A stretch of 35,836 bases of DNA from Gammaproteobacteria bacterium (GTDB taxonomy: Bacteria > Pseudomonadota > Gammaproteobacteria > SZUA-152), in assembly GCA_022627515.1 (NCBI GenBank), contig JAKEGK010000172.1, positions 1 to 35,836 of the forward strand, written 5' to 3'. Each line of letters starts with the position of its first letter. Position 1 is the first letter of the stretch. The notes below the pieces were generated by a model. That model was not told the origin of the DNA and did no database searches. It saw only the letters and a list, made by a program, of their open reading frames with translations. Position numbers and translations under genes: made by a program. Below, piece by piece: positions 6,128 to 35,046 of the stretch.

Positions 6128-6598
6128 ATGAGCACAGTTGCTATCGGCAAAAAGGTTCCCGCTTTCAATTTGCCCGCCACCGGTGATCAACAAATCAAAC
6201 TGGAAGATCTCAAAGGCAGCAAGGTGGTACTGTATTTTTACCCCAAGGACAGCACGCCGGGATGCACTACCGAAGGCCTGGACTTTCAGGCCAGCCTCAG
6301 CAAATTCAAACGCGCCGGTGCGATTGTATTAGGCGTATCACGCGACAGCATCGCATCGCACGGTAAATTCAGGGACAAGCAGGGATTTCAATTCGACCTG
6401 CTGTCCGACACTGACGAAACCCTGTGTAAAATGTTCGATGTCATTAAAGAAAAAAACATGTACGGTAAAAAAGTCATGGGCATCGAACGCAGTACTTTTC
6501 TGATTGATGAGCAAGGCATACTGAGACAGGAATGGCGCAAGGTCAAAGTGGCGGGACATGTGGATGAGGTGTTGGCCGCAGTGAAAGCCCTGAAATAG
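6128..6598 (+). CDS. bcp: Thioredoxin-dependent thiol peroxidase Bcp (peroxiredoxin)
   Basis: Peroxiredoxin of the BCP/PrxQ class that reduces hydrogen peroxide and organic peroxides. It has 156 residues, the family's length. The peroxidatic cysteine is Cys46 in YFYPKDSTPGCTTEG. The resolving cysteine found five residues later in E. coli Bcp is absent (leucine or aspartate lies in that region). The only other cysteine is Cys100 in DETLCKMF, so resolution would involve that residue or an external thiol. The conserved FLIDEQG and final helix are present. It follows gcvR as in E. coli, and a GG-containing stretch precedes the start. Confidence 0.95.
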   Translation: MSTVAIGKKVPAFNLPATGDQQIKLEDLKGSKVVLYFYPKDSTPGCTTEGLDFQASLSKFKRAGAIVLGVSRDSIASHGKFRDKQGFQFDLLSDTDETLCKMFDVIKEKNMYGKKVMGIERSTFLIDEQGILRQEWRKVKVAGHVDEVLAAVKALK

Positions 6599-6606
6599 TT
6601 GTTTGG

Positions 6607-6630
6607 CCGGGTATTTGAAAATTCCGGTTT
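6607..6630 (+). terminator. Possible weak terminator after bcp
   Basis: CCGG, an ATTT/AAAT inner stem and a second CCGG form an imperfect hairpin eight bases after the bcp stop, followed by TTTTC on the plus strand. The stem has mismatches, so this is only a candidate. Confidence 0.3.
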
Positions 6631-6715
6631 TCATTGCGCGGACTGCTGGAAACTATCTCAAACATTGCAAGCGCACACGGCGCAAGGTTTATACCCCAAG
6701 TGCAAAATAAACGAA

Positions 6716-6742
6716 AACCACAACAACCACAACAACCACAAC
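6716..6742. repeat. Three tandem copies of a 9-bp unit
   Basis: AACCACAAC is repeated three times without mismatch (6716-6724, 6725-6733, 6734-6742), followed by a partial copy (AACA). It sits seven bases past the permease stop codon (minus strand), between two convergent genes. On the minus strand it reads as GTTGTGGTT units. No function is apparent; slippage-prone tracts of this kind can vary between strains. Confidence 0.9.
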
Positions 6743-6749
6743 AACACCG

Positions 6750-7826
6750 TTACGTTTCAGCCGCGGGTTGCGCGACCGGTTGCAGGCTCGGCCACGCATT
6801 CAACACCGCTTTCACCAGTGTCGCCAGCGGAATCGCAAAAAACACGCCCCAAAAACCCCATATGCCACCGAACACGATAACCGCCACAATAATGGCGACC
6901 GGATGCAGATTAACAGCCTCGGAAAACAGCAACGGCACCAGCACATTCCCGTCCAGGGCCTGAATAATGCCGTATGCCAGCATCAGCCAGGCAAAATCCG
7001 CACCCCAGCCCCATTGAAAATAGGCAATCATGGCAACCGGAAAGGTGACGGCGGCTGCGCCGATGAAAGGAATGATAACCGACAAACCAACGAGCACGCC
7101 CAATAACAAGGCATAGTTCAAACCCATCACCAGAAACGTCACGTAGCTGACCACACCGACAATAATGATCTCGGTAATCTTGCCGCGGACATAGTTACCG
7201 ATCTGCAAATCCATTTCCTGCCACACCTGCGAAGCCAGGCCGCGGTCCTTGGGCAAATACTTTTTCAGCCAGCTTATAATCACCGCCTTGTCCTTGAGGA
7301 AAAAAAACACCAGCAATGGCACTAAAATACAGTAAACGACGATGGCGAAAAGGATTGGTATTGATGACAGCGAAACGGAGAGAACCGCCTGACCCATACC
7401 GGTAATTTGTTTTTTGAAATCCGTTACGATGTCGTTAACCTGTGACTCGGAAAATATTTGAGGATACATTTCCGGCAGTTGCGCTATCGTCTGCTGCACT
7501 TTGTCCAGTTGTCTGGGCAATTCCTGAATCAATTGCGTAATTTGTTGCGACAATACCGGAATCATCAACAGGATTAAAAACAGCAATATCAGCAGAAACA
7601 GCAAACAGACTACAATAACCGCGCTTAGCCGTGGAATCCGGTATTGTTCAAACAGGGCAACTATGGCTTCCAGCAGATAGGCGATTGCAATCGCGATAAG
7701 AATGGGGGCCAACATGCCACCCATATAGATTATGGTCAAGAGTCCGAACAGCAGCAAAACCGCCAGTATTACCGCCTGCGGATTGGAAAAATTCCTTTGA
7801 TACCAGGTTTTAAAGACTTCAAGCAT
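6750..7826 (-). CDS. AI-2E/PerM family membrane permease
   Basis: Integral membrane protein, 358 residues, of the PerM/AI-2E transporter family. Hydrophobic segments appear in the family pattern: two near residues 15-55, one near 68-92, one at about 148-175, then a dense C-terminal set from about 215 to 345. The family's LDGNVLVPLLFSEAVNLHP stretch is present, followed by GGIWGFWGVFFAIPLA. Reported roles in the family range from autoinducer-2 export to sodium/proton exchange, so substrate is unassigned. The start ATG lacks an obvious ribosome-binding site. It lies 18 bases after the small gene at 7845-8222, probably co-transcribed. Bcp-like and PerM-like genes also neighbour each other in Pseudomonas, as far as I recall. 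Confidence 0.93.
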   Translation of the reverse strand: MLEVFKTWYQRNFSNPQAVILAVLLLFGLLTIIYMGGMLAPILIAIAIAYLLEAIVALFEQYRIPRLSAVIVVCLLFLLILLFLILLMIPVLSQQITQLIQELPRQLDKVQQTIAQLPEMYPQIFSESQVNDIVTDFKKQITGMGQAVLSVSLSSIPILFAIVVYCILVPLLVFFFLKDKAVIISWLKKYLPKDRGLASQVWQEMDLQIGNYVRGKITEIIIVGVVSYVTFLVMGLNYALLLGVLVGLSVIIPFIGAAAVTFPVAMIAYFQWGWGADFAWLMLAYGIIQALDGNVLVPLLFSEAVNLHPVAIIVAVIVFGGIWGFWGVFFAIPLATLVKAVLNAWPSLQPVAQPAAET

Positions 7827-7844
7827 ACTGTTCGTTTAACTAAT

Positions 7845-8222
7845 TTATTGTTCCGAATCTTGCTGCTGATCGCTAATCAGCGCTTCGTAGTGACGCTGAA
7901 ACAAAATTTCCAGTTCATCAATGACCAGATTAGCGGCATGACCCTGCATGACATGTTTCGTCATTAATATCGAGGTTTCATTAAATAACTTGTCTTTTTC
8001 CAGCATGGGATAACTGGACGTCAGGCGTTTAATGGCTCCTACCACGGTTTCTTCCGTGGGCCGTTTGGCAAGCACAGGCTTTGGCAATTCCGTCTTACCT
8101 TTTGCGACGCCGGTATCATCGCCCCTTTCCGCCAGAAATTCTGCGAATTGAAGCAAGGTCTGCTGTTGGATTTCCGTTAAGCGGGAAAAAATTTTAAGCA
8201 GTTTTTTTTCAAGGGATTTCAT
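7845..8222 (-). CDS. Small conserved-looking protein of unknown function
   Basis: A 125-residue soluble, charged protein with no signal peptide. The N-terminus (EKKLLKIFSRLTEIQQQTLL, then QFAEFLAERG) is an amphipathic helical pattern seen in small proteins next to perM-type genes in Pseudomonas relatives. A Pro/Lys-rich linker (about residues 40-58) leads to a second helical region containing MTKHVMQGHAANLVIDELE. No catalytic motif is visible. It lies 18 bases upstream of the permease gene on the same strand, so co-expression is likely. Its bias toward long helices suggests a protein-interaction role, but I do not assign one. Confidence 0.75.
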   Translation of the reverse strand: MKSLEKKLLKIFSRLTEIQQQTLLQFAEFLAERGDDTGVAKGKTELPKPVLAKRPTEETVVGAIKRLTSSYPMLEKDKLFNETSILMTKHVMQGHAANLVIDELEILFQRHYEALISDQQQDSEQ

Positions 8223-8419
8223 GAAACTAAATCATAGCTGATTAAAGCGGGTCATGTGGATATGTGCACTTCGCGTATTGGCGGACGGCCGGAAAAAAAC
8301 ACGTCAATAAAAGGAATTATAGCCAGAAAAAATCCAGTGCGATGACAGGACACTCCGGTAAGAGAAATAAAACCCCAGTGCACACTGTTGCGGGCAACCA
8401 CAGCGAATGTTTGGATTCC

Positions 8420-9331
8420 TTACATTTCGGGAGCCTGATGGGTTTCGCAATAGTTACGCGCAAAATCCAGGAGTTCTTCCATGGCGCGCTGCCGGAACTT
8501 ATGCTTTTGGTGGACAAACGAAAACGGACGTTCCAGCGGAGGATCAAGTTCAAGCACTGCCAGTGTACCCAATCGAATTTCTTTTGATAATGTCGCGCGG
8601 GAAATAATGCTCACACCAATGCCTGCTTCCACGGCGCCTTTTAAAGCTTCCAGGCTGCCCAGTTCCATTATGACATTCAGCTGACTGGCATCCACGCCCG
8701 CTTCCTTAAGATAATCCAGAATAACCTCGCGGGTGCCGGAACCTTCTTCACGGCAGATATAAGGATATTCAACCAGCGTATTCAGGGAAATTTTATCCTG
8801 TCCAGCCAGTACGTGCCCGGGTGGCACAATAGCAACCAACCGGTCAGTACGGCAGATTTCGACCGATAAATTCTTGTTTGCGACGGGAGCTTCCACCACG
8901 CCCAGATCGATCACGTTATGCTCGACCATTGAGACAATGCCATCGGTATTTGAAACTTTGAGCCGCAGATTGACATCCGGATATTTGGCTTTGAAGTCAC
9001 CGAGCAAGGCCGGCAACATGTATTCCGCGATGGTGGTGCTTGCTCCAAGAATGAGTACTCCGCTGATTTCTCCGGTCAGTTCCCGGACAGCGTTTTCCAA
9101 TTCGTTATAAAGTTGAAAAATGCGATCGGCGTATTCATAGACTTTCTGACCAGCCTCGGTCAGGCTAATGCGGTTATGGGTCCGATCGAACAGACGGGTG
9201 TTGAAATGTTCTTCCAATTGCCGAACTTGAAAAGTCACGGCTGGCTGGGTCATGTGCAACGTTTCAGCAGCTTTTGTGAAACTGAGCAGCCGCGCAACCG
9301 TATAAAAAACGTGGAGTCTTCGATCTGCCAT
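8420..9331 (-). CDS. LysR-type transcriptional regulator (CysL/YeiE-like group)
   Basis: A 303-residue LysR regulator. The winged helix-turn-helix spans about residues 4-62, with SFTKAAETLHMTQPAVTFQV as the recognition region. The effector-binding domain runs from about 92 to 295, starting GVLILGASTTIAEYMLP and including REEGSGTREVILDYL, a pattern shared with CysL/YeiE-type regulators linked to sulfur or selenium metabolism. That subgroup call is from resemblance only. AAAAGG precedes the ATG at suitable spacing. LysR genes often face their target, but upstream here is an 800-base gap with no recognisable divergent gene, so the target is unknown. Downstream, 8223-8419 contains nothing I can name. 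Confidence 0.93.
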   Translation of the reverse strand: MADRRLHVFYTVARLLSFTKAAETLHMTQPAVTFQVRQLEEHFNTRLFDRTHNRISLTEAGQKVYEYADRIFQLYNELENAVRELTGEISGVLILGASTTIAEYMLPALLGDFKAKYPDVNLRLKVSNTDGIVSMVEHNVIDLGVVEAPVANKNLSVEICRTDRLVAIVPPGHVLAGQDKISLNTLVEYPYICREEGSGTREVILDYLKEAGVDASQLNVIMELGSLEALKGAVEAGIGVSIISRATLSKEIRLGTLAVLELDPPLERPFSFVHQKHKFRQRAMEELLDFARNYCETHQAPEM

Positions 9332-14730: not shown

Positions 14731-15876
14731 ATGTCAAATCTAAATATTAAAATTTCAATTGATGACGAGATCATCACCGACTACCGGGAAAACTTTGCCG
14801 ACCAGTACGAAGTGGCGGCAAACAGCATTTTGCAACTGGAAAACAATCCAGGCAATACCGACGCAATACATGCCATGTTCCGCGCCCTGCACACCATCAA
14901 GGGAAATTCCAATCTATGCCGCCTGGATATCCTCACCAAGTTCTCGCACGCGGTGGAAGAAATCACCGTTGCAATACGCCAGGATGAATTGAAATATTCG
15001 CCGCTGCTTGGCGAAGTGATTTTATTGTGCCTCGACAAGATCAAGGAAGTAAGCGAAGACCTGTTTAATAACCGGGATGTCGACACTGAACTGCTGAATG
15101 AAATAGAAAACACACTGATCGCGATCAGCAAAAACCCGAAACAGGATTGCAGCAAAAAAGCCACCCGTATCATAGCGCTGATCGCCAACCGCGCCATAGC
15201 CGGAGACAATCTAGCGGTATATGGAGTTGATCAACTCGACTCGGGCAATCATACGCAGACTGCCGATACGGAAATTAGAGCGCCCCAGGACAAAATCAAA
15301 AGCCTCGACTATTTTCAGCAACTCACTTTATTGATCGAAGCCAAGTTCCCTTACTGGAAAGGCCGCTCACGGCGCACCTTGCCTCTGGCGATCGGATTAA
15401 ACCAGATGATGGGTACTGTCGAAGATCCGGTGCAGCTTCAAGCGGCTGTGTACATGCATGACATCGCGTTTGCTTTTATGGACGAGCAAATCTGGCAAAA
15501 GCAAGCCAAATTCGATCCGAACGAAATTACCAGTATGCAGCAGCATCCCGAACTTTCCGCGAAGCTGCTGGAGTTGATTCCCGGCTGGGAAGACGCAACG
15601 CAAATCGTGCTGCAACATCATGAACGATGGGATGGCGCCGGTTACCCTCATGGAATCAAGAGAGATCAGATGCGCGCCGGCGCCCAGTTACTTGCGGTGG
15701 TTGACGCTTTTGAATCGATGACGCACGCACGGCCGGATCGGCATTACCGGCGCTCGATACTGCGCGCCATGACAGAAATAAATAACTGCAGTGGAACCCA
15801 GTTCTCCCCCCACGTCACGTCGTTATTCAACTCTGTGGTCAAGGATACGCTGGCGCAACGCAAAAAGTCGTCGTGA
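14731..15876 (+). CDS. HPt / HD-GYP-like fusion protein with degenerate metal site
   Basis: A 381-residue cytoplasmic protein. Residues about 10-130 form a histidine phosphotransfer domain with the phospho-acceptor His54 in FRALHTIKGNSNLC, the CheA/HPt pattern. Residues about 195-370 resemble an HD-GYP domain: HD at 243-244, His272 in MQQHPELSAKLL, HHERWDGAGYP at 296-306, then VVDAFESMTHARPDR. The usual HDIGK is HDIAF, and the histidine expected in the first helix (before RRTLPLA) is absent. HD-GYP domains normally hydrolyse cyclic di-GMP; loss of ligands suggests reduced or regulatory activity. No histidine kinase is adjacent. AAGGCG precedes the start. Confidence 0.88.
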   Translation: MSNLNIKISIDDEIITDYRENFADQYEVAANSILQLENNPGNTDAIHAMFRALHTIKGNSNLCRLDILTKFSHAVEEITVAIRQDELKYSPLLGEVILLCLDKIKEVSEDLFNNRDVDTELLNEIENTLIAISKNPKQDCSKKATRIIALIANRAIAGDNLAVYGVDQLDSGNHTQTADTEIRAPQDKIKSLDYFQQLTLLIEAKFPYWKGRSRRTLPLAIGLNQMMGTVEDPVQLQAAVYMHDIAFAFMDEQIWQKQAKFDPNEITSMQQHPELSAKLLELIPGWEDATQIVLQHHERWDGAGYPHGIKRDQMRAGAQLLAVVDAFESMTHARPDRHYRRSILRAMTEINNCSGTQFSPHVTSLFNSVVKDTLAQRKKSS

Positions 15877-15991: not shown

Positions 15992-18313
15992 TCATGAATT
16001 TGGCGTCAGGAGATTGTTCGCGCTCTGCATGCATTTGTTCATGCTGCCGACAACCGCATTGATGGCGCGATCCAGCAGAGGCAACTCCTTGACAATAGCT
16101 ATGGTTCCGTTATCCAGCCGCTTGATCAATTCATCCATTGAAATATCGGCGACCAGTCGAAAACGCCAGTCCACAAAGGTATAGTCGCCGGTAAAGTCAC
16201 ACTTCCACGAAAGTTTGCCACGCCTGGTTTTGCCGTCATTGATAAACTCGAGCCAGGTCCCCATTGCCATATCGCGGACCACCGCATGGTTCTTGCTGCG
16301 TTTGGCTTCGGGTGAAAGTTTTATTTGAGTGAAATCATCACTTACTGAAAAATATTCGAAGTCGCCCAATTCAGCCGCGAATGGATTGCCGCCGGTGTCA
16401 CATTCAGAATCATCTTGTTTGGCGTCGTCCCTGACCGGCTCCGGCGCTTTTTTCCGGGGTGAAAAGTCCGCAGTGCCTTTCAGGCATTTCAGATGCAGCG
16501 TTCCCAATTGATCCAGAAATTCCTGAATAGTCTTCTGATCAACGGAAATCAGTTTCAATCCTTCCTGCAGCCGTTTGATAATTTTGGGTATCAGCCGCGT
16601 TAAAGCCTGCTTTTCACTGGCCATCAGTTTGGGCTGAACGCTCCAGACCAGGTCATTTACGACATCCAGGCAAGCTGACCAAACCGGGCCTTTGCAGCCA
16701 TGACGCATACCCACCGCTGTAAGCACATCTTTCCATTTGCCGACTAACAGGTCATATATCAGCTTAGGCACGCGGTACTCTCGAATGCGGGATTCGATTT
16801 CATCCGAGACTTTTTGCTTGGTCTGTTCCAGCAGTTTTTCCGAACGCTTGTTGTCCTGCAGTTCGGAATCCACAAAATTCTTGAACTCCTCCAGCAGTTC
16901 ATCAAATATACCGACATTGGTCTGGAATTCGGACAACACCCGGTTAACCACATATTCCACTTTATGGAATATTACATCGTCCTCGCTCTGTTCCGATGAA
17001 CTGAATGCTGTGCCCGCGTAAGCCAATTCGTTCAACAACAAACGCGCCGGATGGCTTTGCTGGTCGAAAAACTTCTTGTCGAGAATGGCAACTTTAATGA
17101 TGGGAATCTGCAAGCGCGCGATTTCCGCGCGGATCCTGTCGGACAGGGTTTTGTCCTCCAGGATAAACTCAAACATCATGCTGACAATATCAATAACATC
17201 CGATTGTTCATTTTCAATGCCCTTGACCTGTCCGTCTTCCTGGCCTTTGTTCAGCGCGCTTAGTAAATTGTTTTTGATCTCTTGTACGGATACATGCCCG
17301 GGAACACCCTCTCCCAAATTGAGAAAGTCGCCCTGTAACGCAGTAAGTCCGGACAATACATCATTTGCCACATAGAATCCGCCACCTCCGCCACCCGGAC
17401 CACCCGCCCCTTGTGGCGCGCCCGGCTGATCGGTGCCCGGTTGTGGATTTGATTGCCCACGGTGCATGGAAAGCAACTGCCGCAGTGAGTCAAAGGAAAC
17501 ATCTTCATCGGTTCCCGCGCGGGTTTGCGCGGTTTTTGGCGCAACGGAAGGTTGTTGGGATTTTTCCTGCACCGGCTTTGCCTTGACTTCCTGAGCCTGT
17601 GACTTGACCGGTCCTTTGAATTTAATGGTCGGCAGCACACCTTCCGCAACGAACATATCATTGATTTCCCGGTACATCGGTTCCAGCTGACCGGCCACCT
17701 GTTTTTCAAACAGCTTGTAGATAATCAATTTAATTTCCAGCGCGATGGCGAGTTTTTCAGTTGCTTGCTCAAAGGCGCGGCAAATATTGTCCGGTGATAC
17801 AGGGTTGTTATCCGGAGTGATTTCCGCGTTGTTAACGACATGATTTAACCGCTGCGAAATGGCTGACAGGTATTCACGGTACAGGCCATTCGACTTTTCA
17901 ACCATGTTAGTTACGGCTAGCGACTCTTCGAGATCGTCTTCTTCAACCAGACTCAGGGTAGCGTATGAAAAATCCTGGGAATCATCCGGCGAGCTTTTAC
18001 CGTGATGTTTAACGCCTTTCAATGCATCGGTAAAGTATTTATCGAACACCTTGAAATAATGCTGAGCGGCGCCTTTTTTCTCGGCGCGCAACTGACGCAT
18101 TGCATCAAAATAAAGAGTCTGTTTCTCACTACTATCAGCTTTGTTCGCATACTCGAAAATATTGTCATCGATACTCGAAAATAAAGATTGAATACGCTTT
18201 TGCAGATGCTTGAGACTGATTCGTCTAACTGACTGAATCAGCGCCGGGAATTCACCCCCTGCAGGCGGCAAATCGAAAGTTAATTCTTCCGCAAGATTCT
18301 TGTTCTCTGACAT
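15992..18313 (-). CDS. DUF1631 family protein
   Basis: A 773-residue protein without signal peptide or membrane segments. Family marks: YFDAMRQLRAEK near residue 70 and a C-terminal domain with GTWLEFINDG, GKLSWKCDFTGDYTFVDW and PLLDRAINAV. The middle is helical and separated from the N-terminal part by a low-complexity linker with six consecutive glycines (about residues 305-312). The C-terminal domain resembles PilZ-type barrels in layout, but the RxxxR and D/NxSxxG ligand motifs of cyclic di-GMP binding are not recognisable. Some databases label such proteins thymidine phosphorylase, which the sequence does not support. Convergent with the HPt/HD-GYP gene. Confidence 0.85.
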   Translation of the reverse strand: MSENKNLAEELTFDLPPAGGEFPALIQSVRRISLKHLQKRIQSLFSSIDDNIFEYANKADSSEKQTLYFDAMRQLRAEKKGAAQHYFKVFDKYFTDALKGVKHHGKSSPDDSQDFSYATLSLVEEDDLEESLAVTNMVEKSNGLYREYLSAISQRLNHVVNNAEITPDNNPVSPDNICRAFEQATEKLAIALEIKLIIYKLFEKQVAGQLEPMYREINDMFVAEGVLPTIKFKGPVKSQAQEVKAKPVQEKSQQPSVAPKTAQTRAGTDEDVSFDSLRQLLSMHRGQSNPQPGTDQPGAPQGAGGPGGGGGGFYVANDVLSGLTALQGDFLNLGEGVPGHVSVQEIKNNLLSALNKGQEDGQVKGIENEQSDVIDIVSMMFEFILEDKTLSDRIRAEIARLQIPIIKVAILDKKFFDQQSHPARLLLNELAYAGTAFSSSEQSEDDVIFHKVEYVVNRVLSEFQTNVGIFDELLEEFKNFVDSELQDNKRSEKLLEQTKQKVSDEIESRIREYRVPKLIYDLLVGKWKDVLTAVGMRHGCKGPVWSACLDVVNDLVWSVQPKLMASEKQALTRLIPKIIKRLQEGLKLISVDQKTIQEFLDQLGTLHLKCLKGTADFSPRKKAPEPVRDDAKQDDSECDTGGNPFAAELGDFEYFSVSDDFTQIKLSPEAKRSKNHAVVRDMAMGTWLEFINDGKTRRGKLSWKCDFTGDYTFVDWRFRLVADISMDELIKRLDNGTIAIVKELPLLDRAINAVVGSMNKCMQSANNLLTPNS

Positions 18314-34605: not shown

Positions 34606-35046
34606 ATGAGTTTGTTAAATTGGTTGGAAAGAAAGTTAGCTGGTGATAATTCCGCTAAATTAACATTCGATAAAGGACAAGAAGAATTTGCGGGACTGAA
34701 TTTAAAACAGGTTCTCGACGCCCATCTGGCATGGAACGACCGGTTGACAAAATATCTGGATGGAACCAGTCAGGAAAATCTGGATGTACATCAAATTGCC
34801 CCTGACAACCTTTGCATACTGGGCAAGTGGATCTACGGGCCGGGTGGAAAACAATTTGCACAACAGCAAGAGTTTAAAGATCTTCGGCAAACACATAAGG
34901 AATTTCATTTGACTGCCGGGCAGGTGCTTGTTGAACACAACCAGGGCAATAAACAAGCTGCCAATCAATTGCTGGCAGGCAAATTCAGAGCGCTTTCCAG
35001 CAAGATACAACTTAATCTTGTCCGCCTGTATGCATCAGCAAACTGA
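34606..35046 (+). CDS. Stand-alone CZB (chemoreceptor zinc-binding) domain protein
   Basis: A 146-residue cytoplasmic protein consisting essentially of one CZB domain. Likely zinc ligands are His40 in LDAHLAWNDRL, Cys70 in CILGKWIYG, and His97/His101 in THKEFHLTAG, the 3His/1Cys set known for the family. CZB domains occur at the end of chemoreceptors and in diguanylate cyclases such as E. coli DgcZ, where zinc or oxidation of the cysteine controls output. Here no output domain is attached, so it may act as a partner protein; the chemoreceptor and GGDEF proteins in the window are far away. CAGGAG precedes the ATG. Flanked by both copies of the hairpin repeat. Confidence 0.9.
   Translation: MSLLNWLERKLAGDNSAKLTFDKGQEEFAGLNLKQVLDAHLAWNDRLTKYLDGTSQENLDVHQIAPDNLCILGKWIYGPGGKQFAQQQEFKDLRQTHKEFHLTAGQVLVEHNQGNKQAANQLLAGKFRALSSKIQLNLVRLYASAN

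Follow-up and report, generated by a model that had tools for sequence, protein, structure and literature searches.

The open reading frame described here lies on the plus strand of the window, by which the whole stretch of 35,836 nucleotides that was analysed is meant, and encodes a protein called P0001 (Table 1). The original prediction, made from the letters of the DNA, had proposed an HPt domain fused to a degenerate HD-GYP domain, and the fusion as such is borne out by two Pfam matches above their gathering scores: Hpt (PF01627) at residues 15–104 with 29.7 bits (E 7.5e-7, gathering score 24.6) and HD_5 (PF13487) at residues 201–361 with 89.1 bits (E 3.5e-25, gathering score 27.2). In addition to the score, the HPt part carries HTIKG at positions 54–58, in agreement with the HxxKG motif, and has a predicted CheA-P1 fold, and the HD-GYP part combines its profile match with the HD dyad and the GYP motif. 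A response regulator receiver domain (Response_reg) was not found by Pfam in P0001 at E values up to 0.1. In two-component systems an output domain is normally attached to a receiver and not to an HPt domain, and HPt domains usually serve as phosphate carriers rather than as inputs of output domains.

Table 1. Features of P0001 and their positions in the window
Feature	Position	Strand	Basis or conservation
Whole open reading frame, HPt plus pseudo-HD-GYP protein P0001, 381 amino acids, ATG start	14731..15876	+	Translation, Pfam
CheA-P1-type HPt domain, residues 11–134, five helices in the model	14761..15132	+	Pfam, phmmer, model compared with 1i5n_A
His54, predicted phospho-accepting histidine (HTIKG)	14890..14892	+	Sequence; His in 38/48 members
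Interdomain stretch, residues 135–185	15133..15285	+	Low model confidence around 151–180
HD-GYP-like domain, residues 186–380	15286..15870	+	HD_5 E 3.5e-25; model matches DvhD, PA4781, PmGH
Phe206, PmGH D183 position (general-acid candidate), lost	15346..15348	+	No Asp/Glu in 48 members
Arg212, PmGH H189 position (H-site metal ligand), replaced	15364..15366	+	R 44, K 3, H 1 of 48
His243-Asp244, HD dyad, kept	15457..15462	+	H 46/48, D 46/48
Phe247, PmGH K225 position, lost	15469..15471	+	M 44, L 2, F 1, Y 1 of 48
His272, PmGH H250, metal ligand, kept	15544..15546	+	48/48
His296-His297, PmGH H276-H277, metal ligands, kept	15616..15621	+	48/48 and 42/48
GYP motif, residues 304–306, kept	15640..15648	+	Y305 in 46/48
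Asp325, PmGH D305, metal ligand, kept	15703..15705	+	44/48
R334-P-D-R337, PmGH guanine contacts R314 and K317, intervening Tyr replaced	15730..15741	+	Alignment; contacts from PMC4159591

For structure prediction 84 rows were prepared, of which the alignments took 52 and 36; the one for P0001 consisted of 52 sequences from the window and related loci. The AlphaFold2 model of P0001 had a mean pLDDT of 90.0 and a pTM of 0.85, with a linker of low confidence around residues 151–180. Residues 9–137 of the model matched the P1 domain of CheA (1i5n_A, Z 17.2, rmsd 2.3, 128 residues aligned), although high Z values come easily for helical bundles and designed bundles in the same match list reached up to 16.5. 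The assignment as HPt is supported by a separate sequence match of this part to CheA P1 (2ld6, phmmer E 2.3e-8), which is independent of the fold match. P0001 thus resembles the known CheA P1 structures (1i5n, 1tqg, 2ld6) in sequence and predicted fold, but unlike in CheA no kinase, P2 or CheW-like domain is detected by Pfam after its HPt domain. The C-terminal domain of the model yielded three tied best matches, DvhD (9rbz_D, Z 21.7, rmsd 2.9, 189 residues aligned), PA4781 (4r8z_A, Z 21.0), and PmGH (4mcw_B, Z 20.8).

Positions of P0001 were mapped onto PmGH through a profile alignment. P0001 and PmGH share the fold and most of the metal ligands, six of eight being present in P0001, where the H189 position is occupied by Arg212 and the E185 position by Tyr208. 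Tyrosine at the E185 position is also common elsewhere (58 of 92 comparison HD-GYP domains). The catalytic pair of active HD-GYP domains, D183 and K225, is absent, so that P0001 has none of the three residues D183, H189, and K225 of PmGH. The changes that had been pointed out originally, HDIAF for HDIGK and a missing first-helix histidine, correspond to Phe247 and Arg212, and further changes beyond that list are Phe206 and Glu328, the latter aligned with PmGH D308. The residues described as intact are indeed all in place, with His54 embedded in FRALHTIKGN of the HPt part and, in the HD-GYP part, HD, His272, and HHERWDGAGYP, to which Asp325 is to be added. At the positions corresponding to c-di-GMP contacts, P0001 has Y305, R334, and R337 and lacks the tyrosine between the two arginines. 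Within its own family P0001 is atypical in having Phe247 together with Ala246.

In PmGH the mutations D183A, H189A, and K225A each abolish activity and D308A has a similar impact (PMC4159591). Mutation of the guanine-touching residues (R314A, K317A) does not substantially lower activity there (PMC4159591); this dispensability for catalysis says nothing about receptors. The same source assigns H189 to the H site and describes a PmGH monomer which held c-di-GMP with only the G-site iron bound, so an incomplete metal centre can still bind the ligand. The idea of a single-metal centre in P0001 was softened in view of the H-site assignment and of the six ligands which remain. RpfG, the paradigm of an active HD-GYP protein, likewise lacks H189 and has a phenylalanine at this position (PMC4159591). 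Loss of the first-helix histidine alone therefore proves nothing, and the losses of D183 and K225 weigh more. Of the original argument for possible inactivity, the loss of the H189 and K225 equivalents is borne out, but its H189 part is uninformative when taken alone.

Relatives of P0001 were found at several taxonomic levels. A search over 40 relatives yielded a full-length homologue with 37% identity in a genome of the same taxonomic family (G002) and a match in G030 covering P0001 residues 192–378, with an HPt domain in the same frame. Profile searches detected members in at least 18 of 369 genomes of the class (E 1e-40) and at least 18 of 398 genomes of a phylum sample (E 1e-45), the own genome included in both, these counts being lower bounds with at most five candidates scored per genome. 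Within the order, members were found in two of 24 genomes, the own genome and G002 only. The distribution of the family is patchy, and its named members come from Azonexus, Chromobacterium haemolyticum, Alteromonas, and Dasania. A scan of genome contigs with P0001 alone found no relative; an alignment-based contig scan gave at least 80 loci, with six full-length members (L066–L071) among the matches listed. Plasmids contained no match to the L051 member at E 1e-20. The own genome contains a probable second member that is truncated by a contig end, so that the HPt half alone, with HTIKGN kept, is present there (G000:C91:1-462, minus strand; L002, L183); an HD-GYP half matching it was not found in the own assembly at E 1e-5. 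The own genome has three other HD_5 proteins.

Altogether 48 distinct members were collected, counted after removal of two duplicates and including one doubtful member (L056), the match of which crosses one in-frame TGA and was used only up to this stop. Members scored at least 216 bits with the family profile and other HD-GYP proteins at most 163 bits; one kinase encoded in the own genome, which has multiple HPt domains and exceeded 200 bits by summed HPt matches, was excluded. A set of 32 members was made up of distinct rows with a profile score of at least 200 bits and a profile end of at least 320. It was compared with 92 other HD-GYP domains having a long HD-GYP match, shorter matches being excluded. 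Eleven of these 92 rows come from close relatives within the taxonomic family of the window, and many were obtained by a scan keyed on the HHE..DG.G and HD patterns, so that selection accounts for part of the HHE and GYP conservation in the latter. When a maximum-likelihood tree was built from 124 HD-GYP domains, a single branch (support 100/100, length 0.57) separated the 32 members from the others; the bootstrap of this tree is not fully settled and the branch of L056 is long. Two neighbouring HD-GYP genes of the metagenome-assembled genome of bacterium DOLZORAL124_64_63 (L143:3545-5872 and 6240-9020), which have M/L at the K225 and A/V at the H189 position, fall outside the family in the tree. 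Judged from the sequences collected, P0001 belongs to a conserved proteobacterial family of HPt plus pseudo-HD-GYP proteins and is not a lone decayed gene. The fusion thus occurs elsewhere, as a search proposed with the original prediction was to find out, and 38 of the 48 members keep the HPt histidine.

The replacements in the active site are a property of the family. An aspartate or glutamate at the D183 position is present in none of the 32 members as compared to 79 of the 92 comparison domains, a histidine at the H189 position in one as compared to 88, a lysine at the K225 position in none as compared to 89, and an aspartate at the D308 position in six as compared to 72. The same pattern was seen in 16 further members outside the profile-building set, and over all 48 members the D183 and K225 residues are found in none and the D308 aspartate in 15, with arginine prevailing at position 212 and methionine at position 247 (Table 1). 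As changes occur at the same positions throughout the family, the substitutions in P0001 are due neither to chance nor to sequencing error. The retained metal ligands and Y305 are accompanied by new near-invariant residues, N224 (47/48), W286 (47/48), and N351 (43/48), and the N224 position is usually occupied by alanine or glycine in the comparison set. Fixed replacements together with new near-invariant residues imply that the site has been remodelled and has not randomly decayed. The word degenerate in the original prediction therefore applies in that key residues are lost, but the pattern is fixed family-wide and is not that of one decayed gene. The guanine-contact positions are less uniform, with R334 in 33 and R337 in 27 of the 48 members and the tyrosine between them absent in 43 (two of these are gaps). 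In two members (L199 and L200, from G514 and G529) D244, H297, and D325 are lost as well, and the HPt histidine is retained.

His54 is accompanied by K57 in 36 of the 48 members and the histidine is absent in ten. For the 32 members in the tree, the presence or absence of this histidine requires six changes, at least four of them forced by well-supported branches; repeated loss would be the simpler reading, the change count as such being compatible with losses and regains alike. The HPt parts of His-less members have a mean identity of 0.195 to those of His-bearing members, as compared to 0.319 among the His-bearing ones, and for the HD-GYP parts the corresponding values are 0.377 and 0.413; these means are uncorrected for relatedness, and near-identical rows raise the His-bearing values. 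When nine other members were scanned with Pfam, Hpt was matched in three His-bearing and in none of six His-less members. One of the latter (L060:80-1189, in G254:C365) has N-terminal acidic repeats resembling DDELFGE in place of an Hpt match. The model of the His-less Dasania member (L070, mean pLDDT 85.9) still has a CheA-P1 fold (1i5n_D, Z 15.7, rmsd 2.7, 128 residues aligned). Within the ten His-less members arginine or lysine at 212 is kept in nine, methionine or leucine at 247 in ten, N224 in ten, and W286 in nine. Conservation of the HD-GYP part in these proteins implies that its function does not need phosphate on the HPt histidine, which favours the HD-GYP-like part as output and the HPt part as input or docking part. 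The HD-GYP part is thus probably the output. Phosphotransfer, pictured originally as feeding directly into the HD-GYP domain, would be at most an optional input, as the ten His-less members keep the HD-GYP pattern.

Gene neighbourhoods were compared for 26 members and then for 20 more, in 18 of which the gene was recovered (all except L208 and L212), giving a total of 44. Thirty chosen neighbours were annotated by Pfam and the others were compared by BLAST alone. A conserved operon was rejected, there being no family-wide gene order across the neighbourhoods examined, and the BLAST links which recurred between loci, ABC transporters and histidine kinases or receivers, belong to large common families. 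The family gene is mostly an orphan. An adjacent receiver or kinase gene on the same strand occurs in two of the 44 neighbourhoods, a count from partly annotated neighbours and without a background rate. In G254 the family gene stops about 10 bases before a same-strand gene for a REC-GAF-HisKA-HATPase-REC-GGDEF protein, and in G121 a lone receiver gene precedes it by 70–90 bases. A same-strand GGDEF gene lies within about 0.7 kb downstream in two genomes belonging to one genus, G631 and G756, in G631 with a ferritin-like gene in between. A kinase plus regulator pair adjoining the family gene on the opposite strand at some loci (L202, L203) is presumably a case of lineage synteny. In the window itself an operon was rejected as well, since glycerol kinase, GDPD, and DAO genes are divergent, the DUF1631 gene is convergent, and a PAS-GGDEF-EAL gene is 3.7 kb away. 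The DUF1631 protein is encoded at 15992-18313 on the minus strand (PF07793, E 1.1e-175; its NCBIfam PacR match is below the cut-off). The window also contains a small stand-alone chemoreceptor zinc-binding (CZB) domain protein at 34606-35046 on the plus strand and, near the opposite contig end, a methyl-accepting chemotaxis protein at 3-1955.

HD-GYP proteins without hydrolytic activity have been described. DvhD of Desulfovibrio vulgaris binds c-di-GMP without hydrolysing it, with an effective Kd of 99 nM for a PAS/HD-GYP fragment, and does so via R650, Y652, and R653 (PMC13090378). It differs from P0001 in having PAS, membrane, and periplasmic domains and no HPt, and in its substitutions: DvhD has SQ for HD and has lost the double histidine, whereas the HPt family keeps HD and mostly HH and is devoid of the first histidine and the lysine. 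HnoD, a response regulator in the nitric-oxide network of Shewanella oneidensis, has a degenerate HD-GYP domain without phosphodiesterase activity and suppresses an EAL enzyme by binding directly to it (PMC6335343). It resembles the HPt family, by description rather than by sequence comparison, in having a two-component input before a degenerate HD-GYP domain, the input being a receiver in HnoD and an HPt in P0001. The B. pseudomallei protein NosR is regarded as catalytically inactive (PMC12570481), and the NosR model (NCBIfam NF053512, REC plus altered HD-GYP) was the best NCBIfam match of the HD-GYP part in all six members scanned. Membership of P0001 in the NosR family was rejected on its score of 85.9 bits against a cut-off of 400 and on its lack of a receiver domain. 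In 27 matches of the NosR model (L222–L247 and L249, 24 of them over the cut-off) the equivalents of H189 and K225 are each kept in 21 and that of D305 is lost in 24, mostly to asparagine or serine, a pattern unlike that of the HPt family. A paper describing an HPt-HD-GYP fusion was not recognised among titles, abstract beginnings, and passages containing 'Hpt' in a literature coverage outside which most subscription journals lie, a weak indication that none exists.

The favoured reading, with a probability of roughly 55%, is that P0001 is a signalling pseudo-phosphodiesterase in which the HD-GYP-like part acts as output by binding a nucleotide or a partner and the HPt part receives input from a phosphorelay. 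A receiver domain, belonging to a hybrid kinase or to a response regulator, would dock on the CheA-P1-type HPt domain and phosphorylate His54, and this would alter the HD-GYP-like part. The latter would bind a nucleotide (c-di-GMP or pGpG), a partner protein of the GGDEF or EAL type, or both. Since the residues essential in PmGH, D183, H189, and K225, are replaced throughout the family, hydrolysis of c-di-GMP is most likely absent. Binding of c-di-GMP is possible, and uncertain as the guanine-contact positions are only partly kept and the tyrosine is mostly gone. By analogy, the best reading is a likeness in logic to HnoD or DvhD, a pseudo-phosphodiesterase serving as receptor or adaptor with, in addition, a phosphorelay input, and the binding module rather than enzyme of the original prediction is the likeliest interpretation. 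The kinase gene adjoining the family gene in G254 counts for a phosphorelay input and the rarity of such linkage counts against it. A bolder version, put forward only tentatively, is that a phosphorelay HPt and a c-di-GMP pocket were combined in one chain and that two fixed changes turned the enzyme into a receptor. Arg212, at the position of the H-site metal ligand, would hold the phosphate in its stead, and Met247 would remove the catalytic lysine, giving a node where a kinase pathway meets c-di-GMP directly.

Signal flow might also run in the reverse direction, the HD-GYP-like domain sensing c-di-GMP or another nucleotide and gating phosphotransfer by the HPt domain in a second-messenger-controlled phosphorelay node. 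The usual role of HPt domains as phosphate carriers would fit such a node, as would the joint retention of His54 and K57 in most members. A precedent is the reported action of c-di-GMP on HPt phosphotransfer via HapZ on SagS/HptB (review, PMC10333796). This reversal is unlikely in view of the ten members without the histidine, where the HPt cannot be a phosphate-carrying output and the HD-GYP pattern is unchanged across the at least four well-supported changes in the tree. That the protein is still an enzyme, a remodelled two-metal hydrolase with altered substrate, perhaps pGpG, or altered rate, appears more improbable still. Its metal ligands count against the pseudo-phosphodiesterase reading, as H243, D244, H272, H296, and D325 are each kept in at least 44 of the 48 members and H297 in 42, and they could form a working metal centre; RpfG, named as an active paradigm in spite of its phenylalanine at H189 (PMC4159591), also means that inactivity of the HPt family is likely at best. 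The joint loss of three residues, at any of which alanine abolishes PmGH activity according to that paper, speaks against an enzyme, and the additional losses in L199 and L200 suggest that catalysis is apparently not needed in these two. Least probable is that the whole protein is a scaffold for which phosphate and nucleotide are irrelevant, the HPt part being a bundle with no more than a docking or structural role. The CheA-P1 fold predicted for the His-less Dasania member, the six His-less members scanned which have no Pfam Hpt match, and the acidic repeats of L060 would suit a scaffold, but retention of His54 in 38 of the 48 members and of Arg212, Met247, Asn224, and Trp286 in at least 44 each would not be expected of it.

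Should the pseudo-phosphodiesterase reading be true, an apparently non-catalytic HD-GYP domain on an HPt domain would link phosphorelays directly to c-di-GMP signalling, and the naturally His-less members provide built-in controls on the requirement for phosphate. A Pfam HD_5 match alone does not separate pseudo-HD-GYP proteins of this kind from enzymes, and the fixed changes of histidine to arginine and lysine to methionine would give a sequence rule which does.
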